Shown here one piece after another: positions 3,916-46,163 of a stretch of DNA of 46,551 nt. Numbering within the stretch: position 1 is the first letter of the stretch; each line of letters opens with the position of its first letter. The DNA is taken from contig REEQ01000157.1 in the NCBI GenBank assembly GCA_007695005.1, positions 1-46,551 of the forward strand, in the 5' to 3' direction. The stretch comes from Wenzhouxiangellaceae bacterium (GTDB taxonomy: Bacteria; Pseudomonadota; Gammaproteobacteria; Xanthomonadales; Wenzhouxiangellaceae). A program made the position numbers and the translations under genes. Under the pieces are notes generated by a model that was not told the DNA's origin, ran no database searches, and was given only the letters and a program-made list of their open reading frames with translations.

Positions 3916-4011
3916 GTCGGCCCTCATCGTTCTGCAATCCCCATCGTCGCCGCCTTTCAGCTTACCGCCAGCGGCGCCGAAATCAAAGCGTCGACCGATG
4001 CCCCAGACAGC

Positions 4012-4043
4012 AGAAAGCCCGATGGTGAGCCATCGGGCTTTCT
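4012..4043 (-). terminator. Hairpin terminator of the TonB/ExbBD operon
   Basis: A perfect 14-bp stem (agaaagcccgatgg paired with ccatcgggctttct) closes a 4-base loop, about 60 nt downstream of the TPR gene stop. On the minus strand the 3' arm ends in TTTCT. The symmetry could also serve read-through from the other side. It separates the operon from the hybrid kinase, whose start lies about 100 nt further on. Confidence 0.75.
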
Positions 4044-6133: not shown

Positions 6134-6537
6134 GAGCGCCTCGTCGATACCGCTATGGTTTCCTGAACGCCGGCATCACGGATCTGGTGCAGTACCCGAA
6201 TCAGATACTCGCTGTCGGCATCTGCATCGGACTGAATCACGGCGCTGCCGCGGGGATTTTCCCGCCGCAGACGTTCAACGGCGACACGCACGCCTTCAAG
6301 CGGCGTCTCGTCGCGATTGATCCAGATACGATTATCGGAATCGATGGCAACCAGAACCGACACCAGACGCTGTTCTTCAGCGCTCTGCGCCGGCGGGCGC
6401 TGGACCTGGACACCGGGTTCCTTGATGAAGGTCGCCGTCACGATAAAGAAAATCAACATGATGAAGACAATATCCAGCAGCGGCGTGACGTTCACGTCGC
6501 CTTCGTCTTCATCGCCTGATCTGCGTCGTCTAAGCAT
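6130..6537 (-). CDS. exbD: Biopolymer transporter ExbD (second copy)
   Basis: 135 aa, a normal ExbD/TolR length. It has a short cytoplasmic charged tail (LRRRRSGDEDEGDV), a single membrane helix with the conserved Asp of the proton path (NVTPLLDIVFIMLIFF, Asp22) and a periplasmic ExbD domain. It lies 12 bp downstream of the ExbB-ExbD fusion gene, so the operon encodes two different ExbD domains. In known complexes two ExbD chains sit inside an ExbB pentamer; here one may come from the fusion and one from this gene (inference). Its conserved Asp is intact, so it appears functional. Confidence 0.92.
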   Translation of the reverse strand: MLRRRRSGDEDEGDVNVTPLLDIVFIMLIFFIVTATFIKEPGVQVQRPPAQSAEEQRLVSVLVAIDSDNRIWINRDETPLEGVRVAVERLRRENPRGSAVIQSDADADSEYLIRVLHQIRDAGVQETIAVSTRRS

Positions 6538-6549
6538 TTTTGTCTATCT

Positions 6550-7512
6550 CTATCGTCTTTCCTGCAGAGCCACTGCAGGTTCCACACCAGCTACACGTGT
6601 TTGATCCAGAACCAGCACGGTAGTTTCAACGCGTGCGTCACGGGCAGCACTGATCAGCACCACGCCGTTCGGGTTCTCGGCCCGGAAAGCCTCCACGATC
6701 GGGGTCACCGAACGCGGATCCACCAGCCGAACATCGTCGATCAGCACGAAGCCATCGTTGCGCACGCTCAGGATCAAGGTCGGCGGCGGACGCTGCAGCT
6801 CTTCAGGCGGATCATCTTCCGGCGAGCTCAGCCCGATACCGATTTCATCGAGAAAGGTGGCTGTAACTATGAAGAAGATCAGCAGGATGAAGACGATATC
6901 CAGCAGCGGCGTGATGTTGACCTCACCGGCTTCCAGCGAGGACCCGGTCAGGCGCCGATGAGAACCATGACCCATCCCCGCCTCGACCTTCAGCCCTTGC
7001 GAGAGGCGGGCAATGGACTGGGTGTGCTTTCTTTCCAGGTAGTTGATCGCCAGCACACCGGTCAATGCCACGGCCAGACCGGTCATGGTCGGGATGGTGG
7101 CTCGGGAAATTCCCGAAGCCATCAGGCGGGCATTTGACGCGCCGGTGTCGACAATGACCTGAAACACCTCGAGCATCCCGGTCACCGTCCCGAGCAGCCC
7201 CAGCAGGGGCGTGATCAGGATCAGCGCCCGAATAACGTTCAGGTTTCGCTGGTTCTCGATCCGGACCTGTGAGATCAGGCGCTCGCGGTAGGCATAAGCC
7301 TCCCAACTGCTGCGCTCATCGCGCTGGCCCCAGGACGAGTTGGCCTTGCCAACAATGCCCCGGTGCCAGAAAGCGAAATACAGCGCCCGCTCGCTGATCA
7401 GCACCCACATCAGGAAAGTGCTGATCAGGAGCGCAACCACCACCGGGCCACCGGCATTGATGAAACTGCCGATGGCGTCGATGGCGTTGGCTGGAATCAG
7501 TAGCTCTAACAC
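6550..7512 (-). CDS. ExbB-ExbD fusion protein (single-chain proton channel component)
   Basis: 320 aa. Residues 1-179 form a complete ExbB2-type MotA/TolQ/ExbB protein: helices near 21-40, 95-120 and 140-158, with the conserved TPLLGLLGTVTGM loop and the RATIPTMTGLAVAL motif. Residues 180-320 form a complete ExbD starting at an internal Met (MGHGSHRR), with the membrane helix and conserved Asp205 (NITPLLDIVFILLIFF). The two are normally separate genes. The frame runs through the junction without a stop. The internal ATG (6975) is preceded by GAGGCGGGG, so a separate ExbD could also start there. The start is GTG 7512, with AAGGTG 8 nt upstream; no better ATG exists in frame. A second, separate ExbD gene follows. 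A lost stop codon, a real fusion or an assembly error cannot be told apart here. Confidence 0.88.
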   Translation of the reverse strand: MLELLIPANAIDAIGSFINAGGPVVVALLISTFLMWVLISERALYFAFWHRGIVGKANSSWGQRDERSSWEAYAYRERLISQVRIENQRNLNVIRALILITPLLGLLGTVTGMLEVFQVIVDTGASNARLMASGISRATIPTMTGLAVALTGVLAINYLERKHTQSIARLSQGLKVEAGMGHGSHRRLTGSSLEAGEVNITPLLDIVFILLIFFIVTATFLDEIGIGLSSPEDDPPEELQRPPPTLILSVRNDGFVLIDDVRLVDPRSVTPIVEAFRAENPNGVVLISAARDARVETTVLVLDQTRVAGVEPAVALQERR

Positions 7513-7540
7513 GATACTGTCACCTTAGCGATACGTGGCA

Positions 7541-8962
7541 TCAAGCGTTGTCGGTATCGGGCTCGGCAACCAGGCTGATCGACTGCTGCTCGAGCACCTG
7601 GCCAAGCCGACGTGCAGTGCCGGATGCAAAGGCATGCAGCAGCAGCAGCGGGATCGCGGCGATCAGACCGAGTACGGTGGTGACCAGCGCCTGGGAGATA
7701 CCACCGGCCATCAATCTCGGGTCACCGGTACCAAACAGGGTAATGGCCTGGAAGGTGACGATCATGCCGATCACGGTACCCAGCAGACCCATCAACGGAG
7801 CGACGGCGGCGAGCACCTTGACCACGTTGAGGCCGCTTTCCAGACGCGGCAGTTCACGGAGCACGGCATCGTCGAGACGCATCTGCAGGGTTTCGAGGTC
7901 CTCGGTACGGTTTTCCTCGTAGGCGATCATGATGCGACCCAGCGGGTTGCCGGACGACGGGGTCGACGAGCGCATCTGGGCGCGAACGCGCATTGCGGTA
8001 ATCGACAGCAGTGCCCAGCGCAGCAGCGCCAGCAGGATACCGAAGATGGCGACGATGATGATTGCGTAACCGATACCGCCACCCTGGTCGATACGCTCGC
8101 GCAGGTTCGGGGTTTCGACGACCATGCCCAGCAAGGTACCGCGCGACGGATCGATCAGGCCGCGAGTAACGCCGGAGCCGGAGAAGTTGTAAACATCGCG
8201 GGCAGCGCGCACCGCACCACCGGCCGGCTGGCGGACGAGGTAGCGCAGGGTGCCGTCACGCGGGATCAGGAAGCCCTGCTCGGTAAAGGCTGAGAACGGA
8301 CCGATACGGACCACGGTTTCCTGGGCGGACTGGTTGTCACCGCGGATCACCGGCGCCTGGAATCGAGCGACCTTGCCCTGCTCGCTGGCTTCCTGGAGCA
8401 TCGTGAACCACAGGTATTCCAGTTCCTCGATCGTTGGCAGCGAACCGGACTGGGCCATGCGGGACAAGGCGTCTCCACGATTCGGGAACTGGGCGGAAAC
8501 CAGCGAGTCGGCCAGGTTCTCGTTGAGGTCGGCAGCGGCAGCACGCGCCACGCCGAACAGCTCGCCGAACTCGCCCTGCCGCTCGGCCAGGGTCGAACGC
8601 AGATCTTCCAGCTCGCGGTCAAGGCGGTCGCGCAGGTTTTCCAGACGCTCGGCCTCTTCTTCGGCCGCACGCACTTCGCGCCGCAGCCGATTAAGCTCGG
8701 CCTCCTGGGTGGCCTGCTCGCGACGGAAGCGATCTTCCCGCTCCTGGTTGGCGCGAGTCACCGTACGGCGCTCGCTCTGCATCGCCTGCAGTACTTCTTC
8801 AATCGACTGCGGCTGGGTATCGGCCAGCGCGTTCGGCGCCAGGCCGAAAGTGGCAAAGCCGAAGGTCAGGATGGCAATCAGCACACCCTTGATGGTTTTG
8901 TTATTCATGAGTGTTCCAGCCTGAACGGTTGAACGACTTTCGTTGTTGGTTGGCGTGTTCAT
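7541..8962 (-). CDS. Large MotA/TolQ/ExbB-family protein (TtpC-like)
   Basis: 473 aa, far longer than plain ExbB. A signal sequence (about 19-47, ending APNALA) is followed by a charged coiled coil (about 55-125), a periplasmic domain, a membrane helix near 293-318 (IGYAIIIVAIFGILLALLRW) and a C-terminal ExbB core with the loop VAPLMGLLGTVIGMIVTF and a last helix (VTTVLGLIAAIPLLLL). This is the architecture of Vibrio TtpC, an ExbB-like protein needed by the TonB2 system. ATG 8962 has a strong GGAGG 7 nt upstream; an inner ATG at residue 19 would give a shorter signal peptide. The gene is 14 bp downstream of the DUF3450 gene and 28 bp upstream of the ExbB-ExbD fusion. Confidence 0.9.
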   Translation of the reverse strand: MNTPTNNESRSTVQAGTLMNNKTIKGVLIAILTFGFATFGLAPNALADTQPQSIEEVLQAMQSERRTVTRANQEREDRFRREQATQEAELNRLRREVRAAEEEAERLENLRDRLDRELEDLRSTLAERQGEFGELFGVARAAAADLNENLADSLVSAQFPNRGDALSRMAQSGSLPTIEELEYLWFTMLQEASEQGKVARFQAPVIRGDNQSAQETVVRIGPFSAFTEQGFLIPRDGTLRYLVRQPAGGAVRAARDVYNFSGSGVTRGLIDPSRGTLLGMVVETPNLRERIDQGGGIGYAIIIVAIFGILLALLRWALLSITAMRVRAQMRSSTPSSGNPLGRIMIAYEENRTEDLETLQMRLDDAVLRELPRLESGLNVVKVLAAVAPLMGLLGTVIGMIVTFQAITLFGTGDPRLMAGGISQALVTTVLGLIAAIPLLLLHAFASGTARRLGQVLEQQSISLVAEPDTDNA

Positions 8963-8976
8963 TGACAATCCTCCCC

Positions 8977-9759
8977 TTAGTCGGCCGTTTGCGGTGCGGT
9001 GACCGGAATGAACATCAAATCCGGCGGAATCTGCTCACGCGCGATGCGCGATGCCGTCTTGACGTAAGGCAGGAAGGACATGTCCAGGTCGACCCAGCGA
9101 CCGCTTTCGCTGTCGAAGCGCTTCAGCACCCGATCATCATCAGTGCGGAAGATCAGGGCAATGCGACCGATGCGCAGGAACTCGACGTTTTCAAAGCGGC
9201 GACCGTCAACTTCGATGTCCTCGCGGTAGGCCTCGATCGTGCGACCCAAATCATTTTCGATCTGGTAGGCCTCGACCACCAGGCGGTAGCGCTGGGCCGG
9301 CGAACGGCCCGGATCGTCCATGATGCCGCGCAGGCGCTCGACGCGTCCGCGACGCTCTTCCAGCAGCATCGGGATATCTGCCTCGACCAGATCAGCCAGC
9401 GCTTCGACCATGTCTTCCATCAGCGGCTGGACGGCACGCTGGAGGCTGGCGATGTTGTTGATGTCGCGTTCCAGAGAGGCGATTTCGCGTCGCTGGGCGT
9501 CGACCTGACGCTGCTGGGAAGCGTTGTAGCGATTGAGCTGCTCCAGCTGCTTCAGATTGGCCCGATAATCGCTGAGCAGGTTCTGGGTGCGAGAGTCAAG
9601 CTGGTCGATGCGCTCCTGGGAGCGACCAGTTTCCTGAACCACGGCACGGCTGGTATCCAGCACAGGCTCCACTTGCTGGGCGTGGACATGCAGCCCTGCC
9701 AGCATTACACCAAGTCCGGCTGCCAGGCAGGCACCCATGCCAATCGTCTGTCGTTTCAT
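8977..9759 (-). CDS. DUF3450 periplasmic coiled-coil protein, first gene of the TonB2-type operon
   Basis: 260 aa with a clear signal peptide (MKRQTIGMGACLAAG... ending VHAQ), then a long Gln/Arg/Glu-rich coiled coil (about 30-110, for example NASQQRQVDAQRREIASLER) and a C-terminal beta-rich part (GRIALIFRTDDDRVLKRF, SGRWVDLD). Proteins of this family regularly precede TtpC-like ExbB genes, which is the order seen here. The role is probably structural, spanning the periplasm alongside the TonB complex. ATG 9759 is chosen because it starts the signal peptide and has GGGA 8 nt upstream; the frame continues upstream without signal-like sequence. Confidence 0.88.
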   Translation of the reverse strand: MKRQTIGMGACLAAGLGVMLAGLHVHAQQVEPVLDTSRAVVQETGRSQERIDQLDSRTQNLLSDYRANLKQLEQLNRYNASQQRQVDAQRREIASLERDINNIASLQRAVQPLMEDMVEALADLVEADIPMLLEERRGRVERLRGIMDDPGRSPAQRYRLVVEAYQIENDLGRTIEAYREDIEVDGRRFENVEFLRIGRIALIFRTDDDRVLKRFDSESGRWVDLDMSFLPYVKTASRIAREQIPPDLMFIPVTAPQTAD

Positions 9760-10221
9760 ATGATAAATCCCGAAAAAAGGTCGAGTCGAACAATGTAAAG
9801 CGAGGAGACTAGCCGATGAATGGCCAAGACTCAAGCCCCAATGAAGCAGAGAGATTCTTGATTCAAGGCTCACAAATGTCAACCGGGCGCGCCGGGAACG
9901 CCCCCAGCTGTAACGCTGGTTCGCCCCCTCGAGCCTGCCTGCCGGCGTCCCGATCGCCTGCCGGGATCAGCATTTGCCGAACTTTTGAAAGCTTGCCCCG
10001 ATCAGGCCCGGCCGGTACGCCATCATGATCCGGGCTCCTGTTGTCGCGCTGCTCCCAACCGGCTCTGAAGCTCTGAATGCCTGTTGATCATTGATCTCTT
10101 CAAGCTAAGGTCGTGGTGAATGAAACTGCTATCATTGCCGGCCCGGGTTGCGCCTTACCTGTTCTGGCGCAAAATCATTCGCCCATGACCACCAACATCC
10201 AAAGCTGCAATTTTCCCAATC
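9760..10221. other. Divergent intergenic region between the TonB operon and the TPR/sulfotransferase gene
   Basis: 462 bp with no convincing gene; a 70-codon plus-strand frame at 9816-10028 has no domain and a skewed composition. It carries a likely minus-strand promoter (9854-9882) with an inverted repeat over its -10 element. On the plus strand an extended -10-like TGCTATCAT (hexamer 10130-10135) lies about 90 nt before the next gene, with no recognisable -35. I see nothing else. Confidence 0.6.
9854..9882 (-). promoter_or_regulatory. Putative sigma-70 promoter of the TonB/ExbBD operon with overlapping inverted repeat
   Basis: On the minus strand a perfect -35 TTGACA (9877-9882) is spaced 17 bp from AAGAAT (9854-9859), giving a leader of roughly 90 nt before the DUF3450 start. 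The inverted repeat CTTGA-T-TCAAG (9857-9867) overlaps the -10 and could bind a repressor. It does not resemble a full Fur box. Assigned by eye only. Confidence 0.45.
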
Positions 10222-22963: not shown

Positions 22964-23710
22964 ATGAAACGTATCGTGTTCACCCTGAGCCTGGCCGTCA
23001 TCCTCGGCTGCGGTCTGTCGGCCGCACCCGCCATGGCCGACCGCCCGGTCCTCGGCGTGGCCGAGTTCACCAACGAGGCCACCGGCGCACGCTGGTGGCG
23101 GCGTGATGTCGGCTGGGAGCTGTCGAGCATGCTGGCCAACGAGCTGGCTGCCATTGGTGCCTTTACCGTGGTCGAGCGGACCAACCTGGAAGCCGTCATG
23201 CGCGAGCAGGACCTGGGCTCATCCGGCCGGGTTCGCCCTGACACGGCCGCCCAGGTCGGCCAGCTCACCGGGGCCGAGTACATCGTCCTTGGCACCGTCA
23301 CCTCCTATTCGGAAGAAACCTCGCGCACCGGCGGTGGTGTCAACCTGCGCGGCGTCAACATCGGTGGCCGCAGCGCCAACATAGGCCTTGGCGGGAGTCG
23401 CACCCAGGCCTATGTTGCGGTGGATATCCGGGTCGTCAATGCCAACACCGGCGAGCTGGCCCATGTCCGCACCATCGAAGGTCGCACGTCTGACACCGGC
23501 GTCAGCCTGCGCGCCCAGCGCGGCTGGATTGGCGGCAATCTGGCTCATGAGGAAAACACCCCGGCTGGCGAGGCGATTCGGGCTGCCCTGATCGAGATCA
23601 CCGACTTCCTCGAATGCGAGATGGTGCTGCAGACAGCAGCCTGTCGCGCAACCTACCAGCAGCGCGAAGACACCCGCCGCGAGCGCACTCGCAGCCGCCT
23701 GAACTTCTGA
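22964..23710 (+). CDS. CsgG/HfaB-family secreted protein
   Basis: 248 aa with a signal peptide ending APAMA. The fold signature of CsgG-like proteins is clear: VLGVAEFTNEATG, LANELAAIGAFTVVERTNLE, GAEYIVLGTVTSY and VAVDIRVVNANTGELAHV. CsgG itself is a lipoprotein pore for curli export; this one has no lipobox Cys at the cleavage site and no curli genes nearby, so it is more likely a soluble periplasmic relative. A Gly-rich insertion (GGGVNLRGVNIGGRSANIG) sits where CsgG has its membrane hairpins. GGAGG lies 8 nt before the ATG. It is transcribed alone and ends at a strong terminator. Confidence 0.85.
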   Translation: MKRIVFTLSLAVILGCGLSAAPAMADRPVLGVAEFTNEATGARWWRRDVGWELSSMLANELAAIGAFTVVERTNLEAVMREQDLGSSGRVRPDTAAQVGQLTGAEYIVLGTVTSYSEETSRTGGGVNLRGVNIGGRSANIGLGGSRTQAYVAVDIRVVNANTGELAHVRTIEGRTSDTGVSLRAQRGWIGGNLAHEENTPAGEAIRAALIEITDFLECEMVLQTAACRATYQQREDTRRERTRSRLNF

Positions 23711-24252: not shown

Positions 24253-26256
24253 TCAGTGATCGAGGTGGGCGCTGATGCGCGGTAACTGGCGGGCAATGGA
24301 TTCACGGGCCAGACGGGTCGCGCTCAAGGCCGTGTATTCGATCTGCTCAAGCTCCGAGGCATCGATGCGGCGACGCGCTGCCAGGTCATAGGTCACGGTC
24401 TCGAATTGCACCGTGTAGGCTGTGTCGGTGCGACCGTGATAGTGCAGCTGACGCTGCCCGGCCGGCATCGCGCGGGCGACCACGGCAAAGCCTGCCCCGG
24501 CATCGATGGCGGCCCGCGACAGGGCCGACAGATCCAGTTCACTATCGGCCAGCAAACGAGACAGGCCAGCAACGAAACCGCGCTCGACGATGTCATGACC
24601 GTCTGCGCGCAGGGCTTCCTCGATCTCGCGCACCACCGGGTCAACGAAGACGGGGTCACCCATGCCAAGCACCAGCACGCCACCAGGCGGCGCCGGCCGG
24701 CGCTCGACTTCCGGCTCAATCCTGCGTGCGGGGCGCTCCGGCGTGCGCACCATGGCCAGCGACTGGTCCATCTCCTCAGTCCTGGGTTCAGCAACCACCA
24801 ATGGTGCATCGGCCGGCGACGCCGTCGGTGGCACGGTGCTTGCTCGTTCGGCAGTCTGGCCCGGCTCGTCGGCAAGGAGCGCCGAAGCAGCGCTGAGCGG
24901 GGGCTCAAGCTCGGCTTCGGCTTCAGCCAATGCGGCCGCGGCTGACTCATCCGAAGACCAGTGGCCGCCGTCACCGATGTCTTCGGCCTGACGATCATCC
25001 GGCGCTTGGGCCGCCTCTTCAGCCGACGGCCGCATGGCGATACGATCCACCAGCTCAAGATCCGCGGCCGGGAATGGCTCCGGTGCGGGCGACTCGATCG
25101 CCGCCTGCTCCGGCGCCTCCGCTTCCGGCGCGCTGGTCGCGCTGAACAGGGCTGTCACCGGCTCGAAGCGCTCTGGCATCAGGATCACCAGGCTGGCAAC
25201 AGCCGCCCCGACCAGCAAGAACAGGGCGGCAGCCAGACCGAAGAACAGCCCCAGGCCGCCGCCGCGACGCTGCGATGGCGGCGCGGACGAGGCCGTGGCA
25301 GGCGGCGCGGTCGCGCCCGGATTGACCGCTTCGGTAGGCGGCATCTCGGCCGATGCCGAAGCAAGGACACGACCGGACTCGGCCAGGCGGGTGGGCTCGT
25401 CACCGGTCGGGGGGGCAGCCTGACGCACCGCTGCCGCCGCCGGGCTGGCCGATTCCTGCTTGAGATCGGCCAGCAGGGAATCGTAATCCTGATAGCGCTT
25501 GGCCGGATCCTGGGCCAGCATGCGCCCGAGCACGCCGAAGGTGACCTCGTCGATCTGCTCGTCGAGGTCGGCCAGCACCGGAAAGTCCGAAGCCAGCAGG
25601 GTGCGGGCAGTATCTTCGATATCCCGGCCAGGCACCAGTCGCCGACCGGCCAGCATCTCGTAGTAGACCGCGCCAAGGGCAAAAATGTCACCGCGGTGGT
25701 CGGCCGGCTGCCCGGTCATGACTTCTGGCGGCAGGTAGCCGGGCGTACCCATGATGTATTTGCTGACCTTGGGCTGCTGGTCGGGATGAACGATGCTGGC
25801 AATGCCGAAGTCAGTCAGAATGGCGCGGCCGCGACGGTCGATCATGATGTTGCCGGGCTTGATGTCGCGGTGGACGATGTTCTCCTCGTGCGCGGCCTTC
25901 AGCGCTTCGGCCGACTCGATGATGATGCGACGGGCTTGCTCCGGCATCAGGCGCTTGTCACGCGCCAGGCGCTCGGCCAGCGACTCACCGTCAATGAACT
26001 CCATGACGAAGTAGGGCCGACCCTCATCTTCATCGGCCAGGAATATCTGGGCGATGTGGGGATGGTTGAGGGCGGCGACGTTGCGCGCTTCGCGCAGGAA
26101 GCGGGTAACGGTGATCTCGTCTTCGCTGAGCTCGTCGCTCAGGCACTTGATCGCAATGAAACGCTCCAGCTTCGGGTCGACGGCCTTGTAGACCACGCCC
26201 ATGCCGCCGCGACCGAGCTCGCTGATGATGTGGTATCGACCCAGTACCTTGGCCAT
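24253..26256 (-). CDS. Membrane-bound eukaryotic-like Ser/Thr protein kinase
   Basis: 667 aa. The kinase domain (about 6-270) is complete: glycine loop ELGRGGMGVVYK, AIK Lys37, catalytic NIVHRDIKPGN (Asp131), DFG Asp149 and GTPGYLPPE. A Pro/Ala-rich juxtamembrane stretch leads to one helix near 332-355 (LFFGLAAALFLLVGAAVASL), an acidic low-complexity periplasmic linker and a C-terminal folded domain (about 520-665, starting GGVLVLGMGDPVF) that may be CsgG/LpoB-like. It is therefore a receptor kinase with a periplasmic sensor. ATG 26256 has a strong AGGAGG upstream. The divergent neighbour carries two FHA domains, which bind phosphothreonine, so it is the obvious substrate (inference). Confidence 0.93.
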   Translation of the reverse strand: MAKVLGRYHIISELGRGGMGVVYKAVDPKLERFIAIKCLSDELSEDEITVTRFLREARNVAALNHPHIAQIFLADEDEGRPYFVMEFIDGESLAERLARDKRLMPEQARRIIIESAEALKAAHEENIVHRDIKPGNIMIDRRGRAILTDFGIASIVHPDQQPKVSKYIMGTPGYLPPEVMTGQPADHRGDIFALGAVYYEMLAGRRLVPGRDIEDTARTLLASDFPVLADLDEQIDEVTFGVLGRMLAQDPAKRYQDYDSLLADLKQESASPAAAAVRQAAPPTGDEPTRLAESGRVLASASAEMPPTEAVNPGATAPPATASSAPPSQRRGGGLGLFFGLAAALFLLVGAAVASLVILMPERFEPVTALFSATSAPEAEAPEQAAIESPAPEPFPAADLELVDRIAMRPSAEEAAQAPDDRQAEDIGDGGHWSSDESAAAALAEAEAELEPPLSAASALLADEPGQTAERASTVPPTASPADAPLVVAEPRTEEMDQSLAMVRTPERPARRIEPEVERRPAPPGGVLVLGMGDPVFVDPVVREIEEALRADGHDIVERGFVAGLSRLLADSELDLSALSRAAIDAGAGFAVVARAMPAGQRQLHYHGRTDTAYTVQFETVTYDLAARRRIDASELEQIEYTALSATRLARESIARQLPRISAHLDH

Positions 26257-26401
26257 GAAAACCTCCTGCAGGAAACCAGACTGACCGGCACGCCGGCCCA
26301 TCGTATCAGTGTCACCCCCTTTTACGCAGTTGGCAAAGGCTTTCCGCCACAATCCGGGCGCAACTTGCGTAATGATGGGCGGATGCCACAGAGGCGCTGG
26401 A

Positions 26402-28393
26402 ATGATCGACGACGAAAAGCACAGCGCATCCCTGCGCGCCCTGCACCCGGGACCCTTGCCCAGCGAAATCCGACTGCCGCCGCAGGGCCTGGTGCTGGGG
26501 CGCGATGCCGCTGTCGCCGGCGTCCTGATCAGTCGGGACGGGGTGTCGCGCAGACACTGCTGGGTCGGCCCGGATGGCGACGGCGGCTGGCTGGTCCGGG
26601 ACCTGGATTCACGCAACGGGGTATTCGTCAACGGCCAGCGCATCTCCGGGCATCATCCTTTGGTGAGCGGCGATGTCATCGGTCTCGGCCGCTCGCGCCT
26701 GGGCGATGTCGAGCTGGGCGTCAACGGCGGCGAACGCGAGCGGGTGCTGTCCGGCAACGGTCCCTGGCAGCTGGGCCGCGCACTCGACTGCGAACTGAGC
26801 CTGCCGGCTGATCCCGGGGTCAGCCTGGTCCATGCCCGCCTTGAGCGCCGCGGGCAACAGCTGGCGCTGCGTGACCTGGGCAGTCGCAACGGCTGCTGGC
26901 AGAACGGCCGGCGCGTCCACCGCAGCCTGTTGAGCGCGGGTGACACCCTGGAGCTTGCCGGCAGCCGCCTGCTGATCCGCTCGATCGGCGACGACATCCG
27001 TTTGCTGATTGGCCCGACCCAGCGCGCCCTGGGCGCACGGATCGAGGGCTTGAGCGCCACCGCCGATCGGCGCGGCGGACTGAGCATGGCGCTGCTTCCG
27101 GCCCGTCTTCAGCTCGCCGTCATTGCCGATTCCGAGCAGCGTCGTTCGCTGTTGGACATGCTTGCCGGCATGCGCGCCGCGCGCGCCGGCCGGGTGCACT
27201 GGAGCGAGCCGTCGCTCGACCAGGGGCGCGAGCGGCTGCGCTTTCGGGTGGGTCGTGTCACCGAGCTGGACCTGCCAATCTGTGGGCTCAGCGGCTCCCA
27301 GTGGCTTGAACAGCAGGCCAGCCTGGCCGCCGCCGGCGACCTCGACGCCGCGGCGCGCCGCCAGCGCACCCAGGCCGCGCTCGATTTGTTGGGCGCAGCC
27401 CATCTGGCCGACCTGGGCCTGGACCGCATGACCCGGCTGGAACAGCTGTTGATGCTGATCGCCGCGGAGCTTCTGCCCCGACCAGGCCTGCTGGTGCTGG
27501 ATCTGCCCGCGCTGGTCGACGGCAAGGACGACCGGGCCGAGTTGATCGACCGCCTGCAGCGCGCTGCCGGCAGCACCCTGACTGTACTGCTGGCCAGCGA
27601 TTCGCCGCTGGAGGGAATGCCCGAGGCCAGCGACTGCCCGGTCAGCGATGCGCAAGTAGCAGCAGCGGCACAGGCACCGGGCAAATTGCCGCGGGCGCGC
27701 GGCTTTTCCCGGGCGGCCTGGTTGACGCTGCTTGGCGAGCAGCTGCGCGGCTGGCGCCGGCAACCGCTGATGCTGATCGAGGCACTGGCCCTGCCGCTGG
27801 TGCTGCTGGGTGGTCTCTGGCTGGCGCTACCCGACCTGGAGATGAGCTGGATTCTGCCGATCAGCGTTGGCCTGGCGGCCGCATTGGGTGCGGCCTTTCA
27901 GGTCAGTCGGCGGCCAGGCCGCTTGCTGCGTGCGGCGCGCCGTCATCTGCTGCTGGATGATGCCTTGCTGGCCATGTTCAGCGCCGCTGCACTGGTCGTG
28001 CTGTGCCAATTGCTCAGCGCCCTGGCCTTGCTTGTCCTGTTGCCGGACACCCGCCTGACTGGAGCGCTGGCAGCAGCGGCTGCCCTGACTGCGCTGGCAT
28101 CCTGCACCCTGGGCTTGAGCTGTGGCCTGATCGCCGGGGCGCGCGCGGAGCTGGCACTGGTACTGGTTACAGTCGCCGCCGGCTTGAGCGTGCTCGCCGG
28201 CAGCCTGGCCGATGCCGAGCAGCTGAACAGCAGCCTGCGCGCTGCCGCCAGCCTGATCAGCCCGAGCTACTGGGGCCAGCACCTGGCTGCCAGCGGCTGG
28301 GACGGCGGCGCCATCCTGGCTGGCAGTTTGCTGCTGATCCAGACCCTGCTGCTGCTGCTGCTCAGTCGACGGCTGCTGCGCCGGCGGCTTTGA
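26402..28393 (+). CDS. Double-FHA protein with degenerate ABC ATPase and ABC2-type membrane domain
   Basis: 663 aa. FHA1 (about 25-105) has LGRD, VSRRH and SRNG; FHA2 (about 115-195) has LGR, SLVH and SRNG. Residues about 200-420 line up with an ABCG-type nucleotide-binding domain: AVIADSEQRRSLLDMLAG replaces Walker A, LDLLGAAHLADL precedes a lost LSGGQ signature (DRMTRLEQL), LLVLDLPALVDG replaces Walker B without its Glu, and LLASDSP replaces the H-loop. From about 455 six hydrophobic helices form an ABC2-type permease. The FHA-FHA-NBD-TMD order matches mycobacterial Rv1747, but all ATPase motifs are lost. ATG 26402 is chosen over earlier in-frame starts because FHA1 begins soon after; its ribosome site is weak. 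It is divergent from the kinase across 145 bp. Confidence 0.85.
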   Translation: MIDDEKHSASLRALHPGPLPSEIRLPPQGLVLGRDAAVAGVLISRDGVSRRHCWVGPDGDGGWLVRDLDSRNGVFVNGQRISGHHPLVSGDVIGLGRSRLGDVELGVNGGERERVLSGNGPWQLGRALDCELSLPADPGVSLVHARLERRGQQLALRDLGSRNGCWQNGRRVHRSLLSAGDTLELAGSRLLIRSIGDDIRLLIGPTQRALGARIEGLSATADRRGGLSMALLPARLQLAVIADSEQRRSLLDMLAGMRAARAGRVHWSEPSLDQGRERLRFRVGRVTELDLPICGLSGSQWLEQQASLAAAGDLDAAARRQRTQAALDLLGAAHLADLGLDRMTRLEQLLMLIAAELLPRPGLLVLDLPALVDGKDDRAELIDRLQRAAGSTLTVLLASDSPLEGMPEASDCPVSDAQVAAAAQAPGKLPRARGFSRAAWLTLLGEQLRGWRRQPLMLIEALALPLVLLGGLWLALPDLEMSWILPISVGLAAALGAAFQVSRRPGRLLRAARRHLLLDDALLAMFSAAALVVLCQLLSALALLVLLPDTRLTGALAAAAALTALASCTLGLSCGLIAGARAELALVLVTVAAGLSVLAGSLADAEQLNSSLRAAASLISPSYWGQHLAASGWDGGAILAGSLLLIQTLLLLLLSRRLLRRRL

Positions 28394-39523: not shown

Positions 39524-40417
39524 ATGAGCAGACCAGCAAATCGCGCTTCAGCTTTCCCGCGACAGGCCTTTGACCGTGTCGCCAGTCGCTACGATGACCA
39601 CGCGGCATTGATCAACGAGGTCGGCAAGCGCTTGCTGGAGCGGCTGGATGGCCTGAACTTCACGCCGACCAGAATTCTTGATCTGGGCTGCGCCACCGGT
39701 TATCAGTGCCTGGCCCTGCATGAGCGCTTTCCCCATGCCGGAATCATTGGCCTGGACCCCAGCGGTCCGATGCTGGCGCAAGCTCGACGGAAACGAGGTC
39801 GGTGGCGGCGGCGTTTCGAACTCGTCGCCGGCGCCCTGCCCCACCTGCCGCTGGCCGCCGACAGCATCGACCTGGTCTATGCGAATTTGAGCCTGCACCA
39901 CTGCCAGGAGATCGCCGCGGCACTGGCTGGCACGCGCCGGGTGCTCAGGCCTGGCGGCCTGCTGCTGCTGTCGGTGCCAGGCATGGACACCCTGAAGGAG
40001 CTGCGCCTGGCCTGGCATCGGGTGGATCCTGAAGCGCTCAGAGTCATGCCCTTCACCGACGCCCAGCGCCTCGGCACGGCCCTGACACAAGCCGGGTTTG
40101 CCGAACCGGTGATCGATACCGACTGGCTGCAAAATCGCTTCCCGCACCCGCGTTTGCTGCTGGAAATGCTCCAGGGCATGGGCTTTGTCAATCAGCACCC
40201 GCAGCGGCCGCGAGGTCTCATGACGGCACGGCAAGTGGACAAACTGCTTCGAGCGCTGAGCGATCAGGCCGACGCCGAAAACGGGATAGGTGTGAGCTGG
40301 GAAGCCGTTTATGCCTCGGCCTGGGCACCGGAACACGGCCAACCGCTCCGTTTCGGCGGCATTGATGAGGTCAGCATTCCGATTGACCGGATTCCGGTCA
40401 GGCGCCGGGACCCATGA
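39524..40417 (+). CDS. bioC: Malonyl-ACP O-methyltransferase
   Basis: 297 aa. It is a class I SAM methyltransferase that masks malonyl-ACP as its methyl ester to start pimelate synthesis for biotin. Evidence: AFDRVASRYDDHAALINEVG at the start, typical of BioC, then ILDLGCATGYQCLAL (SAM motif I), DSIDLVYANLSLHHC and RPGGLLLLSVPGMDTLKEL. ATG 39524 begins the family sequence; no other start gives a sensible N-terminus. Its 3' end overlaps the convergent diguanylate cyclase gene by 20 bp. Confidence 0.9.
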   Translation: MSRPANRASAFPRQAFDRVASRYDDHAALINEVGKRLLERLDGLNFTPTRILDLGCATGYQCLALHERFPHAGIIGLDPSGPMLAQARRKRGRWRRRFELVAGALPHLPLAADSIDLVYANLSLHHCQEIAAALAGTRRVLRPGGLLLLSVPGMDTLKELRLAWHRVDPEALRVMPFTDAQRLGTALTQAGFAEPVIDTDWLQNRFPHPRLLLEMLQGMGFVNQHPQRPRGLMTARQVDKLLRALSDQADAENGIGVSWEAVYASAWAPEHGQPLRFGGIDEVSIPIDRIPVRRRDP

Positions 40418-41312
40418 GGCGGTCGCGCCCGGCGCTTTTCGCTTCGTAAAGATAGGCATCAGCCTGCTTGAGCAGTTCCGATACCGTTTTCAGCTCAGCG
40501 TTCAGGCCGGCGTAGCCGATGCTGATGGTCACAGTCTCCAGTCGGCCCTCCCCCAGATCAAAGCGGCTTTCAGCCACGGCCTTGCGCAGCCTTTCACACA
40601 CCTCCCGAGCCGCTGCCAGACTGGTCGCCGGCATCAACACCGCAAACTCTTCGCCGCCAATCCTGGCCAGGGTGTCACCGGCCCGAACCCGTTCGGCCAG
40701 AATCCTGGCAAGCTGACGCAACACGGCGTCACCGGCCAGGTGGCCGATACGGTCGTTGATTTCCTTGAAGTAGTCGACATCGATGATCGCAATGACCAGG
40801 CTGGCGTTTCGCTGCCGCACCGCCTCGGCCACGGCCTCGTCGAGCACCTCCATGAAATGGCGCCGGTTGTACAGATCCGTCAAGCCGTCCCGCACTGCGT
40901 GTTCCCTGAGCTCCTTTAGATAACCGGCTTCCAGGTTGCCGGCCGCCAGGTACTTGAGCACCGATTTGCCGATACGAACCTGATCGCCATCGCTTAGCCG
41001 GTGGCGCTCGATCCGTGCCTCATTGACGTAGGTGGCATTGGTCGAGCGCAGGTCCTCGATCCAGAAAGCATCGGCTTCGGACACGATTCGACAGTGCGAG
41101 CGCGAGACGCTGCGAGAAGGAATCTGGAAGTCGGCGTCACTGCCCCTGCCGATGACCACCGGACTTTCATCCAGCTCGATCCGGGCGCCCAGGCGATCGC
41201 CGCGAATCACCACCAGGCAGGCACCGAGCCGGCCCGACTCCTGAGAGGCGGCATCGGGCAGCAGCAGCGTGCATGGGTCGGTCTGTTCGCCGGATCGAGA
41301 GCCGGAACTCAT
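40398..41312 (-). CDS. FHA-GGDEF diguanylate cyclase
   Basis: 304 aa, soluble. An FHA domain (about 45-122: VIGRG, SVSRSHC, STNATYVN) is joined to a GGDEF domain (about 135-304). The active site is intact (GGEEF, 219-223) and the product-inhibition site RxxD is present (RAGD, 210-213). It makes cyclic di-GMP, presumably controlled by binding of a phosphothreonine protein to the FHA domain; a Ser/Thr kinase is encoded 14 kb away. ATG 41312 has GGAAG 7 nt upstream. A TAGAAT -10-like element (41393-41398, minus strand) lies about 80 bp upstream. Confidence 0.93.
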   Translation of the reverse strand: MSSGSRSGEQTDPCTLLLPDAASQESGRLGACLVVIRGDRLGARIELDESPVVIGRGSDADFQIPSRSVSRSHCRIVSEADAFWIEDLRSTNATYVNEARIERHRLSDGDQVRIGKSVLKYLAAGNLEAGYLKELREHAVRDGLTDLYNRRHFMEVLDEAVAEAVRQRNASLVIAIIDVDYFKEINDRIGHLAGDAVLRQLARILAERVRAGDTLARIGGEEFAVLMPATSLAAAREVCERLRKAVAESRFDLGEGRLETVTISIGYAGLNAELKTVSELLKQADAYLYEAKSAGRDRLMGPGA

Positions 41313-41679
41313 CGGGATGCTTCCTGCAAGGCAGCCTGGGGCCGGTTCGGGCCGGAATAACGCCCTGCCCGACAGCGAGGCCGAAGCCCGGAATTCTAAC
41401 CTGCAAGCTGCCTCATTGCCATCTGCACGCATGCCACGGCGAGTCAGCCCCTGCAAGGTGATCTGCTGTCATCTGCCTTCCGCGTGGACGGGATCCGGGC
41501 AAAAAAAGGGCCGGCCTCGTTACCCAAGACCGACCCAGCCCCGCTTGCATTACCCCTACATCGACAAGCCCACTTCTCGCCGCTGCCACTACAGGTTCAG
41601 TCTAGCCTGCGACCCGGCAACTGGTATTGACCGGACGCGACAATCGATTGTCACTTTGCGACAGCCTTGCGCCAATAGC
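41313..41679. other. Intergenic region between the hybrid kinase and the diguanylate cyclase
   Basis: 367 bp on the common minus strand. It contains a T-tract terminator for the kinase gene (41501-41541) and a putative -10 for the cyclase (TAGAAT at 41393-41398, with ATGGCA 18 bp upstream as a weak -35). No gene is supported. Confidence 0.6.
41501..41541 (-). terminator. Terminator downstream of the propeller/AraC hybrid kinase
   Basis: On the minus strand GGGCTGG (41541-41535) pairs with CCGGCCC (41514-41508), one G-U pair and a 20-base loop, followed by seven T residues (41507-41501). It lies about 140 nt after the kinase stop. Confidence 0.6.
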
Positions 41680-44600
41680 CTAAGCCGACTGGCGTTCCTG
41701 CCGCCAGCGCTGCGGCGGACTGCCATATTGCTTGCTGAACAGGCGGGTGAAGTGCTGCGCGCTGGCAAAACCACTGTCCAGCGCAATCTGGTTCACCGAC
41801 AGCTCGGTGGATTCCAGCAAGGCCATGGCATGCTGCAAGCGCTGATGGCGGATAAAGGCCGCCGGGGTCAGGCCCGTCATCGCCTTGAGCTTGCGCTGCA
41901 GGGTACGGCGCTCGACGTTGGCCTGCTCGGCCAGTTGCTCGACCCCGTAACCCGGATCCTGGAATCGTGCTGCTACATGGCGGCGCACCGCGGCCAGGAA
42001 TTCGACATCGCCTTTGATCAGGTCAGGAAGCTTCGGCGCGGACGATGGGCCATCAGCTGGCGCGCCCTGCAGCCGCCGCCGCAGACGTTCCCGGTTATCA
42101 AGCATGCGACGCAGGCGCAGGACCAGCTCGGTAGCATCAAAGGGCTTGGCCAGGAAGTCATCGGCACTCAGACTCAATCCTTTCAGGCGCGTGGCCTGGT
42201 CCTGGCGTGCAGTCAGCAGCAGCACCGGGATATGGCTGGTTGCCAGATCGTTGCGCAGCTGCGCCAGCAAGGCAAAGCCGTCCATGCCCGGCATCATGAT
42301 GTCACTGATGATCAGATCCGGCAGCTCGCAGCGGGCCAGGGCCAGGGCGCTGTCACCATCGGCGGCCTCCAGCACCTGCCAGTGCGGCTTCAGGATTCGG
42401 CAGATATGGGCTCGCAGGTCGGCATGATCCTCGACCAGCAGCAAGGTGCCGGCGCGGCGTGCGCTGGCCGGCTCGGCGGCGGCATCGTCTCCGACCCGGC
42501 CGGCAAGCGGCTGCAGCAAAGCCGAATCCAGCGCCAGCGTCTCCATGCTGATCAGGCGCGCCGGCTGCTGCCGGCCGTCGCCACGGAACCCTGGGAAATG
42601 GACACTGAAGCGGCTGCCGCAGCCGGGCTGACTGGTCAGGCCTACGCTCCCGCCCATGGCCAGACTCGCCTCCCGCACCAGGGCCAGGCCGATGCCTGCA
42701 CCGGCAATACCTGCCTGGTCAGACCATTCCAGCCGCTGAAAACGCTCGAAGATGCGCTCCTGATCCTGCTCGGGAATACCCGGGCCCGTATCCCTGACTG
42801 CCAGCTCCAGGCCCTCGTCACTGCCCTTGAGCGTGACCTCGATCTCACCACCGCCGGGGCTGAACTTCAAGGCGTTGGTCAGCAGATTGAGCAAAATCTT
42901 TTCGACATGGGTCTGACTGCAGCGGGTCATCCAATCGTCTTCCAGACTGACCCGCAGGCGAATGTCGCGTTGCTCGGCCAGGGAACGAAAAGCCGCCGCG
43001 GTGGCCGCTACCACCGGCGCCACCGTCCACGGCTCGTCCTGGACTGCCGCCTCGCCCAGGCGCAGGCGCGACAAGTCCAGGAGCTGATCAACCAGACGCA
43101 ACAGGTGGCGCAGATAGCGGCGACCACTGGCAATTGCCTCAGCAGACCCACCGTCCTCGTCGAGCTGGTCCAGGCTGGCCTGAATCAGGGTCAGCGGCGT
43201 CCGGAACTCATGCGACACATTGGCAAAGAACAAGGTTCGTGCCTCCAGTGCGCGCTCAAGTTCCAGCGCCTGGCGGCGACTGAGCGCCTGCTGCCTGGCC
43301 AGCTCGGCGGTACGGCGCTGAACCAGCGCCTCCAGCTCTTTGCGGCGATTCAAATGCAACAGCCAGGCCAGGAACAGCAAGCCCAGGGCAATGACGGTGT
43401 AGGCGGTGTAGGCCAGGCCCGTTTGCCAGGGCGGCGGGCGCACGTGCATGGCCACCAGCAGACGCTCTTCGGACCAGACGCCATCGCTGTTGGCAGCCCG
43501 CGCATAAAAGCGATAGCGCCCCGGCGCGAGTCCGGCATAGCGAACCTGGCGCTGGTTGCCGGCATCAACCCAGTCATCGTCCAGCCCGGCCAGTCGATAG
43601 GCGTAGCGCACCCTGGTCGGGTCGCTGAACTGCAGGCCGACGAAAGCGATCTCGATATCGTTCTGGTCATGTCCCAGGATCAGGGCGGGCGCATGGTGGA
43701 GCTGCCCTCGCCACGGCTGACCACGCACACTGATCTCCTGCAAGTGCAGGCGCGGGGGACGGGCGAGTTCGGCCACCTGGCCGGGCATGAAGCGATTGAC
43801 ACCATTGATACCGCCGAAGAAAAACGCGCCATCGGCGCCGACATGGGCGACGGTATTGTTGAATTCCAGCGACTGGATACCATCGGGCATGGTGAAGTGC
43901 CGAACCTGTCCGGAGCCTGGATCCCAGCGCATCAGGCCATTGTTGCCGCTCATCCAGAGCTGCCCGTCTTCCTGGGGCAGAATGGCGTAGATGGTCATAT
44001 CGACCAGGCCATCCTCCAGCCCGTACCAGACCAGCCGTGGCTCGCCATCCCCCCAGTCGAGGTGGGCCAGACCGAACTCCCGGGTCCCCAGCCACCAGCC
44101 GGACTCATGATGCGCGGCCAGACCGTAGACCTCGGTCGCCCCACGTTCAAAATGTTCATTACCATCGAGGAACCAGCTCGCCCCCGGATCAGAAGGATCG
44201 TGCAGACCGACGCCGTCACGCGCCCCGGCCAGCACCTGACCATTGGCCGTGACCAGCAGCGACATCAGCGACCGTCCAGGCCAGACCGGCTCGACCTCGT
44301 CCTTGCTCAACTCGCGCCTGTCAGCACTGATCCGGACCGACCGCAATCCAGCGCTGGTTGCAAGCCAAAGTCGATCCATTCCCGCAGACCAGGCCATGGC
44401 ATTGTTCGGCGTCGACCCGCGGCCAACTGCCAGCTGCGTGACCACCTGATTGCTTGTGGCATCAATGCCAACCAGATGGTATCGCTCCAGCACCCAGACC
44501 ATGCTGCTGTGCGGGTCGGCCAGCACGCCCCAGACGGCATTGCCCGGCAAGCGCTGTTCCGGCTCGGCAAGGGCATGGAAACTGGCAGTGGTCTCGTAGC

Positions 44601-45951
44601 CACCATCGCTGCGTCTGCGCATACGTCGCAGGCCACCGTGATCCAGCGCCAGCCACAGATATTCGCGATCCTGCAGGCGCTGCTCGGCAATACCCCGCAC
44701 GATGTTCAGACCGGCAAAGGGAACTGTGCCCAGCGCACTGCGATCGGCAATGTGCTGAAACCGATGTCTGCTGGCAGAGTAACGCGCCAGGCCACCCAGC
44801 CGACTGCCCACCCATACCGAACCGTCCTCATTGACGAAGGCAACGTAGCCGGCACCCAGCGTCGTCGGTGGGATGCTGTAGCTGTCACGCGGATCATGAT
44901 TGAACACCTGAAAACGGTCTGTAGCCGCAGACCAGCGGGCGACGCCGTACTGACTGGTAAACCAGAGATCCCCGTTGGGGTGCTCGACCATGCGGATGCG
45001 CTGGCGGGTATTCTCATCCTGGCGGATGCGGCCACCGGCATATATCAGCTCCCACCGATCCGATCCTGGCCAATACCGCACCAGATGGGTCGACATGAAC
45101 AACCACAAAGCGCCATCGCTGCTGACATGCACCGCGCTGGTGCGCTCGCCCTCCAGCCCCAGGCGCTCCAGGCTCACCCGTCGCTTGATCGTCTCGGTCA
45201 CAGGGTCAAACAGGGCCAGCTCCTCATCCAGAGCCAGCGCCAGCAAACCGTCAGCACTTACAGCAACCGCACTGTGAATCCGGTACTCCGGCGCCCGATC
45301 CAGAGCCAGCACCCGGCGCAGCCCGGTGTCCTCGGCTTCATGGACCCACAATCCGGCACCGTTGAGCAGCCAAAACCTGCCGACCTGATCAACTACAGCA
45401 GAGCGTCGTGAGTGTTGCTGACGCTGCACCGGCTCGGCAAAGGGCAACCAGTGGATCGACTGCGTCTCGGGCCGCCAGACGCCAACCCCGTCCGACCCCT
45501 CCAGATACAGCCGCTCATCGACCGCTTCACCCAGGATGCGCAGAGATCGTGACCCCTGCGCAGTTGCTGATGCCGGCAAGGGGAATCGCTCGGCCCGGCC
45601 AGAACGGGTGTCGAATCGGTTCAGACCATCGCGAGTCGCTACCCAGAGCAGACCATTGCCAGCAAGCTTCAAATCAGAGATGGCGCTATGGCTCAAGGAA
45701 CCGGCATCGGCAGGGTCATGACGCCAGGAAACGAAACGGTAGCCGTCGAAACGATCGAGCCCGAACTGGGTGCCAAACCAGAGAAAGCCGTCACGGCACT
45801 GGGCAATCCCGTGTATCGACGACTGCGACAAGCCGTGGGCCATGGAAATGCGCTGAAAACGGACCTCATCATCAAGGACCAGCTCGGCAAAGGCACTCGG
45901 CAACCAGGCCATGGCAGCCAGGACCAGGCCACTCAGTTGAATCCTGTTCAA
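41680..45951 (-). CDS. One-chain hybrid two-component system: propeller sensor, kinase, receiver, AraC output
   Basis: 1423 aa from the chosen start. A signal peptide (LSGLVLAAMAWLPSAFA) precedes periplasmic propeller repeats over ~650 residues (GFLWFGTQFGLDRFDGY, GLLWVATRDGLNRFD) and a Y_Y_Y domain (AGLDDDWVDAGNQRQ). Then come one membrane helix, HisKA (NVSHEFRTPLTLIQ, His914), HATPase_c (GPGIPEQDQERIFERF, GIGLALV), a receiver (LIISDIMMPGMDGF, Asp1217) and a C-terminal AraC helix-turn-helix (IALDSGFASAQHFTRLF). This is the layout of the hybrid systems known best from Bacteroides, which sense glycans. TTG 45951 is inferred from the signal peptide and AGGT upstream; no in-frame ATG is suitably placed. 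Confidence 0.92.
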   Translation of the reverse strand: MNRIQLSGLVLAAMAWLPSAFAELVLDDEVRFQRISMAHGLSQSSIHGIAQCRDGFLWFGTQFGLDRFDGYRFVSWRHDPADAGSLSHSAISDLKLAGNGLLWVATRDGLNRFDTRSGRAERFPLPASATAQGSRSLRILGEAVDERLYLEGSDGVGVWRPETQSIHWLPFAEPVQRQQHSRRSAVVDQVGRFWLLNGAGLWVHEAEDTGLRRVLALDRAPEYRIHSAVAVSADGLLALALDEELALFDPVTETIKRRVSLERLGLEGERTSAVHVSSDGALWLFMSTHLVRYWPGSDRWELIYAGGRIRQDENTRQRIRMVEHPNGDLWFTSQYGVARWSAATDRFQVFNHDPRDSYSIPPTTLGAGYVAFVNEDGSVWVGSRLGGLARYSASRHRFQHIADRSALGTVPFAGLNIVRGIAEQRLQDREYLWLALDHGGLRRMRRRSDGGYETTASFHALAEPEQRLPGNAVWGVLADPHSSMVWVLERYHLVGIDATSNQVVTQLAVGRGSTPNNAMAWSAGMDRLWLATSAGLRSVRISADRRELSKDEVEPVWPGRSLMSLLVTANGQVLAGARDGVGLHDPSDPGASWFLDGNEHFERGATEVYGLAAHHESGWWLGTREFGLAHLDWGDGEPRLVWYGLEDGLVDMTIYAILPQEDGQLWMSGNNGLMRWDPGSGQVRHFTMPDGIQSLEFNNTVAHVGADGAFFFGGINGVNRFMPGQVAELARPPRLHLQEISVRGQPWRGQLHHAPALILGHDQNDIEIAFVGLQFSDPTRVRYAYRLAGLDDDWVDAGNQRQVRYAGLAPGRYRFYARAANSDGVWSEERLLVAMHVRPPPWQTGLAYTAYTVIALGLLFLAWLLHLNRRKELEALVQRRTAELARQQALSRRQALELERALEARTLFFANVSHEFRTPLTLIQASLDQLDEDGGSAEAIASGRRYLRHLLRLVDQLLDLSRLRLGEAAVQDEPWTVAPVVAATAAAFRSLAEQRDIRLRVSLEDDWMTRCSQTHVEKILLNLLTNALKFSPGGGEIEVTLKGSDEGLELAVRDTGPGIPEQDQERIFERFQRLEWSDQAGIAGAGIGLALVREASLAMGGSVGLTSQPGCGSRFSVHFPGFRGDGRQQPARLISMETLALDSALLQPLAGRVGDDAAAEPASARRAGTLLLVEDHADLRAHICRILKPHWQVLEAADGDSALALARCELPDLIISDIMMPGMDGFALLAQLRNDLATSHIPVLLLTARQDQATRLKGLSLSADDFLAKPFDATELVLRLRRMLDNRERLRRRLQGAPADGPSSAPKLPDLIKGDVEFLAAVRRHVAARFQDPGYGVEQLAEQANVERRTLQRKLKAMTGLTPAAFIRHQRLQHAMALLESTELSVNQIALDSGFASAQHFTRLFSKQYGSPPQRWRQERQSA

Positions 45952-46062
45952 AGCACTACCTGAAATCAGACATGGCAATCCCCTGTGATCCAAGGCAGCT
46001 GACAAAATGACGCGCCAAACCCGGCCTGTCAACCATACGCAACCCACATCAGCGCGATCATC

Positions 46063-46089
46063 TTGGCTGCCGGACGAGCATGCTAAACT
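46063..46089 (+). promoter_or_regulatory. Putative promoter of the DUF3144 gene
   Basis: TTGGCT (46063-46068) and an extended -10, TGC followed by TAAACT (46084-46089), are spaced 15-16 bp. The transcript would start near 46096, about 70 nt before the gene. Confidence 0.35.
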
Positions 46090-46163
46090 ATCGTGCTCGC
46101 TGGCCCTGACTAACCCGCAGGCGCGCAGCGGTTGTTTCAAAGACTTCAGGAATGCAAGCGCTC

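Follow-up and report, generated by a model that had tools for sequence, protein, structure and literature searches.

The closest described system to the one reported here is Rv1747 of Mycobacterium tuberculosis, which is encoded beside the Ser/Thr kinase PknF. Rv1747 is a half-transporter of ATP-binding cassette (ABC) subfamily G in which two FHA domains precede a nucleotide-binding domain (NBD) and a transmembrane domain (TMD) (PMC3908365; this and the other papers are cited from excerpts of their text). It has the Walker A, Walker B, and signature motifs and is an ATPase in vitro (PMC5549992, PMC3908365), and the linker between its FHA domains is disordered (PMC9312465). Yeast two-hybrid assays show that it needs both FHA domains to interact with PknF, and its FHA part condenses more readily once phosphorylated by PknF (PMC3908365, PMC9312465). 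We describe a similar pair in a 46,551-nucleotide stretch of a Wenzhouxiangellaceae bacterium (contig REEQ01000157.1 of GCA_007695005.1; contig C191 of draft genome G000, 3.3 Mb and 91% complete). We call this whole stretch the window. The closest named relatives of the contig are mostly metagenome-assembled genomes of Wenzhouxiangella (Gammaproteobacteria). In the window, a membrane Ser/Thr kinase lies beside an FHA-FHA-NBD-TMD protein that has lost its ATPase motifs. We propose, with moderate confidence, that a half-transporter similar to Rv1747 became an ATP-independent, phosphothreonine-reading membrane scaffold that is kept for its FHA domains and its location in the membrane.

Two other systems are useful for comparison. 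Reviews describe degenerate ATP sites in ABC proteins that occur beside a working site (PMC7756269, PMC7756502). Human ABCG8, for example, has a degenerate Walker A motif (GSSGCGRAS; PMC7756502), and the pair that it forms with ABCG5 has one inactive nucleotide site; in the window protein, Walker A and the signature are both gone from one chain. ABC signal transmitters of the FtsEX type also use the ABC architecture for signalling instead of transport (PMC11627006), but FtsE signals through its ATPase activity, and its motifs are absent here. We found no FHA-ABC protein without ATPase motifs in the excerpted open-licence literature of PubMed Central. A term search of PMC7691419, on Wenzhouxiangella AB-CW3, gave no mention of a kinase, FHA, or an ABC transporter.

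Loss of the ATPase motifs

The FHA protein has these features:

26402 to 28393, + strand: FHA-FHA-pseudoNBD-permease protein (663 amino acids; open frame with its ATG at 26402; the alignment with homologues begins near this start)
26492 to 26689, + strand: FHA domain 1 (Pfam FHA stretch; GR, SRRH, and NG residues)
26756 to 26956, + strand: FHA domain 2 (Pfam FHA stretch; GR, S..H, and NG residues)
27044 to 27601, + strand: NBD-like (pseudo-ATPase) region, residues 215-400 (hhalign to intact NBDs and a profile match to ABCG8)
27122 to 27148, + strand: Walker A relic IADSEQRRS, residues 241-249 (canonical GPSGAGKTT; motif table)
27428 to 27448, + strand: signature relic MTRLEQL (canonical LSGGQRK; motif table)
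27485 to 27508, + strand: Walker B relic GLLVLDLP (motif table)
27599 to 27601, + strand: H-loop position, where Asp400 replaces His (motif table and profile alignment)
27698 to 28390, + strand: ABC-2/ABCG-like membrane domain (about six hydrophobic segments by hydropathy)

An earlier note on this DNA had proposed this domain order and had taken the NBD-like region for a relic of an ABC transporter. The order is correct, and profile comparisons give good support to the view that residues 215-400 descend from an ABC NBD, with ABCG the nearest type. A profile built only from 10 degenerate NBD-like regions (A4) aligned to the NBDs of intact FHA-ABC proteins over 196 columns (hhalign, 99.9% / 5.9e-32) and matched 387 distinct sequences in the PDB at E ≤ 0.01, with ABCG8 as the best (2.8e-21). 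These values are strongest because other relatives are included, above all those of clade B (G018, G029, and G008), which still carry LDRPLDGLD, with GLD as a remnant of the D-loop. For the window's four-member subclade alone the homology is weaker (98.7% / 4.7e-16, and 5.1e-5 for the best PDB match), and Pfam's ABC_tran gives the window protein a marginal 0.04, which is under the cut-off.

The motifs themselves are replaced much as the note had said. The signature has become MTRLEQL, and Walker B lacks its Glu, with the Asp (D367) kept. Walker A is indeed replaced, but the aligned stretch is IADSEQRRS instead of ADSEQRRS. Similarly, the H-loop His is lost, but the residue at its place is Asp400 and not Ser. 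The Q-loop Gln is missing from the window protein as well. All seven members of clade A have Asp or Glu at the H-loop position.

A family-wide search covered 43 genomes, of which 30 are genus members. The FHA-pseudoABC gene was found in 11 of these 30, and an intact FHA-ABC gene was found in G033, which belongs to the same family. (G006 ends at a contig edge before the NBD, so it was counted for adjacency and left out for motifs.) Walker A, the signature, the Walker B Glu, and the H-loop His are lost in all 10 relatives that cover the region. By contrast, Walker A and the signature are kept in all 29 other rows of the motif table, including G033. Because the 28 named rows were chosen partly by Walker A, we repeated the comparison as a motif-blind census: FHA and NBD profiles were run against every frame of at least 200 amino acids in 80 named loci, the best 80 among 363 relatives. 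Both domains were present in 36 frames; the seven from the Wenzhouxiangella set all lack Walker A and the signature, and the other 29 all keep both motifs. The note had warned that close homologues with Walker motifs would mark this copy as a decayed gene; no such homologues turned up, and we reject the decay of a single copy given the loss in 10 of 10 relatives and ratios of nonsynonymous to synonymous substitution (dN/dS) below 1 (see below).

On a tree of NBDs, the degenerate and intact sets are split with 100/98 support, with long branches. Most parsimoniously, the ATPase motifs were lost once, before the split of the two Wenzhouxiangella clades that carry the gene. Clades A and B could also have lost them independently, though this is less parsimonious.

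The intact FHA-FHA-ABC proteins have the same domain order and keep Walker A and SGGQ, and the nine included in alignment A2 share 19-27% identity with the window protein. The note had stressed that this lineage is far from Actinobacteria, but intact proteins of this architecture are found in Desulfobulbaceae, Acidobacteriota, Actinomycetota, and other Gammaproteobacteria; what sets this genus apart is that its ATPase has been lost. A search with A1 in 299 genomes of the order (best 4 candidates per genome) returned only the 12 family genomes already known, while 369 genomes of the class (best 3 candidates per genome) yielded three further gammaproteobacterial FHA-ABC genes, all with intact motifs, including Walker A and the SGGQ signature. 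(Searches of class and phylum samples with the A2 profile, with the best 2 candidates per genome, returned mostly ordinary ABC ATPases and were not used for counts.)

Judging by their conserved residues, both FHA domains can probably bind phosphothreonine. Pfam FHA matches the window protein in two stretches (5.2e-31), which nearly touch. The GR, SRRH, and NG residues of the first domain do not vary among the 9 rows of alignment A1 and vary little or not at all among the 17 rows of A2, and the corresponding residues of the second domain are invariant in A1.

Selection and the membrane domain

The degenerate genes show neither the broken frames nor the neutral evolution of pseudogenes. None of the 11 members has an internal stop (9 are full length and 2 are cut by contig ends; G008 is cut in the permease, where 58 codons were used). 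Across eight pairs, dN/dS in the NBD-like region (Nei-Gojobori method, NG86, throughout) was 0.24, 0.15, 0.33, 0.25, 0.28, 0.52, 0.45, and 0.41, or below 1 in every case. Bootstraps of three pairs, none of which involves the window gene, gave 0.24 (0.17-0.39), 0.15 (0.09-0.23), and 0.25 (0.16-0.37), and dN/dS in these pairs was below 1 in every domain. The NBD-like region is under purifying selection.

The constraint is also inverted. In the intact set, the NBD is more conserved than the FHA domains in 94 of 94 pairs (from 22 of the 29 intact rows, compared within three taxonomic groups). This is true of just 1 of the 45 degenerate pairs, so the FHA domains are under tighter constraint than the NBD in the degenerate set, which is the opposite of the intact set.

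Could the gene be decaying on its way to being lost? It is absent from 19 of the 30 genus genomes (several of which are incomplete), the NBD and TMD diverge faster than the FHA domains in clade A, and the tree of the neighbouring kinase is compatible with two losses. Also, the pairs that involve the window gene have higher dN/dS in the NBD-like region (0.41, 0.45, and 0.52), with dS near saturation. Besides the open frames and the low dN/dS of the resampled pairs, two observations argue the other way: the gene is kept in both clades of the kinase tree, and the gaps between the kinase and prfC in five genomes without the gene hold no convincing remnant of it (best tblastn E 0.06). We consider ongoing decay to be quite unlikely.

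A profile of the TMDs of 9 degenerate relatives aligned to intact TMDs (97.7% / 1.9e-12), so an ABC-type membrane domain lies C-terminal to the NBD-like region in the pooled relatives, but the window's subclade of four, taken alone, matches weakly (only 62.2%). Pfam's ABC2_membrane is under its cut-off for the window protein (0.013), and the window permease by itself had no match in the PDB. The note had stated that the permease survives. Its roughly six hydrophobic peaks do, but within the clade of the window protein the permease sequence varies as much as the NBD-like region (40% mean identity each). In clade B the permease stays tight (70% identity for the TMDs of G029 and G018, versus 58-62% for their FHA domains).

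A membrane domain that is kept with about six helices, and that is tight in clade B, might act as an ATP-independent conduit: phosphothreonine binding by the FHA domains would switch the permease, which would be a phosphorylation-gated channel or lipid scramblase. The conservation of the FHA domains and the kinase fits this idea as well. However, the loose TMD of the window's clade (dN/dS of 0.42 for G028 and G012) fits an anchor better than a pore, and we think that a conduit is improbable.

The protein might instead still take part in transport, if it forms a heterodimer with an intact half-transporter of the ABCG type that is encoded elsewhere, as ABCG8 does with ABCG5. Heterodimeric ABC exporters often have degenerate sites (PMC7756269, PMC7756502). 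The well-conserved permease of clade B is consistent with such a partnership, and G000 has several other long frames that match NBDs (619-751 amino acids) and might supply a partner. But Walker A and the signature of one ABC chain sit in different composite ATP sites of the dimer. With both lost in the same chain, ABC architecture implies that no partner would complete either site. Furthermore, the 7 matches to PF01061 in G000 are in frames of 258-415 amino acids, which is short for a fused NBD and permease, and A1 finds one family member in G000 at 1e-20. A heterodimeric transporter therefore seems very unlikely.

As the ATPase motifs are missing from 10 of 10 copies, we do not classify the protein as a functional ABC transporter, even though its NBD-like region is homologous to ABC ATPases. 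From its sequence, it is best named a pseudo-ABC protein derived from the FHA-ABC family. Compared to Rv1747 and PknF, the FHA domains and the adjacent membrane kinase with its intact catalytic motifs are present, and an active NBD, as judged by motifs only, is not.

The neighbouring kinase

The kinase and the gap are laid out as follows:

24253 to 26259, - strand: Ser/Thr kinase with 1 predicted transmembrane helix and a presumably extracytoplasmic C-terminal domain (668 amino acids)
25492 to 26235, - strand: kinase catalytic domain (Pfam Pkinase 3.3e-49)
25237 to 25491, - strand: juxtamembrane segment with candidate FHA docking sites GDEPTRL and PPTEAVNP (acidic-Thr motif)
25180 to 25236, - strand: single transmembrane helix, residues 342-360 (hydropathy)
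24256 to 24690, - strand: C-terminal domain (no Pfam match)
26260 to 26401: divergent intergenic region between the two starts (142 bp)

The note's intact, membrane-anchored kinase, divergent from the FHA protein, is there with both frames open, and the catalytic domain has the motifs GRGGMG, AIK, HRDIKPGN, DFG, and GTPGYLPPE. The gap between the genes, given as 145 bp, measures 142 bp. Both starts have plausible ribosome sites: AGAGG lies 7 nt upstream of the ATG at 26402, and AGGAGG lies upstream of the ATG at 26259 on the kinase strand. A promoter scan of the 142 bp found no sigma-70-like site. In the mycobacterial system the genes form an operon, whereas here they are divergent.

Wherever the FHA gene occurs in the genus (11 of 11 genomes), the kinase is adjacent to it and divergent, so linkage in other genomes, which the note had proposed as a check, is found. 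The catalytic motifs of the kinase are intact. In G003, G024, and G011, which lack the FHA gene, the kinase match is 144-191 bp from prfC, and in G027 and G016, which also lack it, the slot holds roughly 1.8 kb of other sequence (with a DUF1565 in G027). On a tree of the kinases (midpoint-rooted, with long branches), the presence of the FHA gene needs two changes, which could be two losses or two gains. Losses seem to us the better reading, as the NBD tree groups the degenerate copies together.

Alternatively, the two genes might merely be neighbours, with the FHA domains reading phosphoproteins of other kinases. G000 does have 26 Hanks-type kinase (Pkinase) matches at E ≤ 1e-8 in its 3.3 Mb, the genes are not in an operon, and the kinase persists without the FHA protein: its C-terminal half (query 24256-25140) matches in 24 of the 43 family genomes (19 genus members and 5 others), and 8 of these 19 lack the FHA gene. 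Also, 23 of 28 named loci with intact FHA-ABC genes have no adjacent kinase and 5 do, with short flanks in some cases. On the other side, besides the adjacency in 11 of 11 genomes, G033 has its intact FHA-ABC gene, a vWA gene, and a kinase homologue together, with the vWA gene in between. A kinase is also adjacent to the intact gene in 3 of 3 loci from other Gammaproteobacteria with all domains in one frame. (We left out locus L163 of G238, where the FHA and an intact ABC are in separate frames beside a kinase.) And in three genomes of genus g6 (G061, G034, and G063), the kinase homologue adjoins an FHA-EAL-like gene (Pfam EAL was run on the G034 copy, and the G061 and G063 copies were judged by eye). 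Overall, we consider it unlikely that the genes are unrelated neighbours, though less so than the alternatives discussed above.

The juxtamembrane acidic-Thr motif is a candidate docking site for the FHA domains. All 8 kinases of the window's clade have an acidic residue 1-2 positions before [PA]-T. The FHA-EAL-like proteins of genus g6 (L145 7803-9047, L146 7179-8324, and L147 4817-5911) each have an acidic-Thr motif as well, after the FHA domain (DEMTQI, DDATRI, and DEATRV).

The C-terminal domain of the kinase is possibly a new sensor domain. Three copies had no Pfam match, and the best PDB match was unconvincing (E 0.0095 over 34 residues). A CsgG-family gene (22964-23710; PF03783, 6e-45) adjoins the kinase, so we suspected a CsgG/LpoB-like fold, but a profile comparison with eight CsgG proteins gave 0.65% probability, and Pfam and the PDB gave nothing. 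More distant CsgG-like genes (31-39% identity) also adjoin the kinase in G033 and in several genomes of clade B, so the link between CsgG and the kinase recurs. In G019 (L142 4520-4657 and L268), a 46-residue match to the C terminus of prfC is beside the kinase, and a full prfC is near csgG and pepck on another contig, which suggests a rearrangement.

The window also encodes an FHA-GGDEF protein (40404-41465, - strand), in which phosphothreonine recognition is fused to a diguanylate cyclase. A TonB-type energizing cluster (6133-9966, - strand) consists of DUF3450, MotA/ExbB, and two ExbD-containing frames, one of which also has a MotA_ExbB domain and is an apparent ExbB-ExbD fusion. Two sensor histidine kinases (1-4041 and 41683-46161, - strand) are very large and have Reg_prop/Y_Y_Y regions, and the second of these ends in a response regulator and an AraC-type domain.

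Proposed role

In the scaffold that we propose, the kinase would sense something outside the cytoplasm via its C-terminal domain. It would autophosphorylate threonines in its juxtamembrane tail and phosphorylate other proteins, and the two FHA domains would bind the resulting phosphothreonines. The pseudo-NBD and permease would be an ATP-independent platform in the inner membrane that joins the kinase to its targets. Clustering without an ATPase may be the half of Rv1747's job that was retained. More tentatively, a bacterial ABC exporter lineage could have turned into a true pseudo-transporter: the receptor kinase next door would supply phosphothreonines, and their binding by the FHA domains, instead of ATP, would now set the state of the membrane domain. 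We are doubtful of this.

Several observations weigh against our proposal. The first are the absences of the gene from 19 genus genomes and from 8 genomes with the kinase, the higher dN/dS of the window gene, and the alternative of separate motif losses in the two clades. Another is that similar juxtamembrane Thr motifs occur in kinases with no FHA-ABC neighbour. The long linker between the FHA domains of Rv1747 is missing from the window protein (we compared Rv1747 through one FHA domain, PDB 6cah, and papers, instead of its full sequence). Finally, a branch of Desulfobulbaceae is nearer to the degenerate set than G033 is on the NBD tree (with some open forks and long branches), and the Desulfobulbaceae loci show no kinase beside the FHA-ABC gene. 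Because of this placement, the kinase link in G033 may be independent of the one in Wenzhouxiangella instead of ancestral.

In contrast to the degenerate ABC proteins described in the reviews, this is a half-transporter with no partner able to complete an ATP site, which persists under selection in two clades beside a receptor kinase. It offers a natural experiment on the roles that the FHA module and the membrane domain play in kinase-coupled ABC proteins when transport is taken away, and it bears on whether the main job of Rv1747-like proteins is clustering or export.

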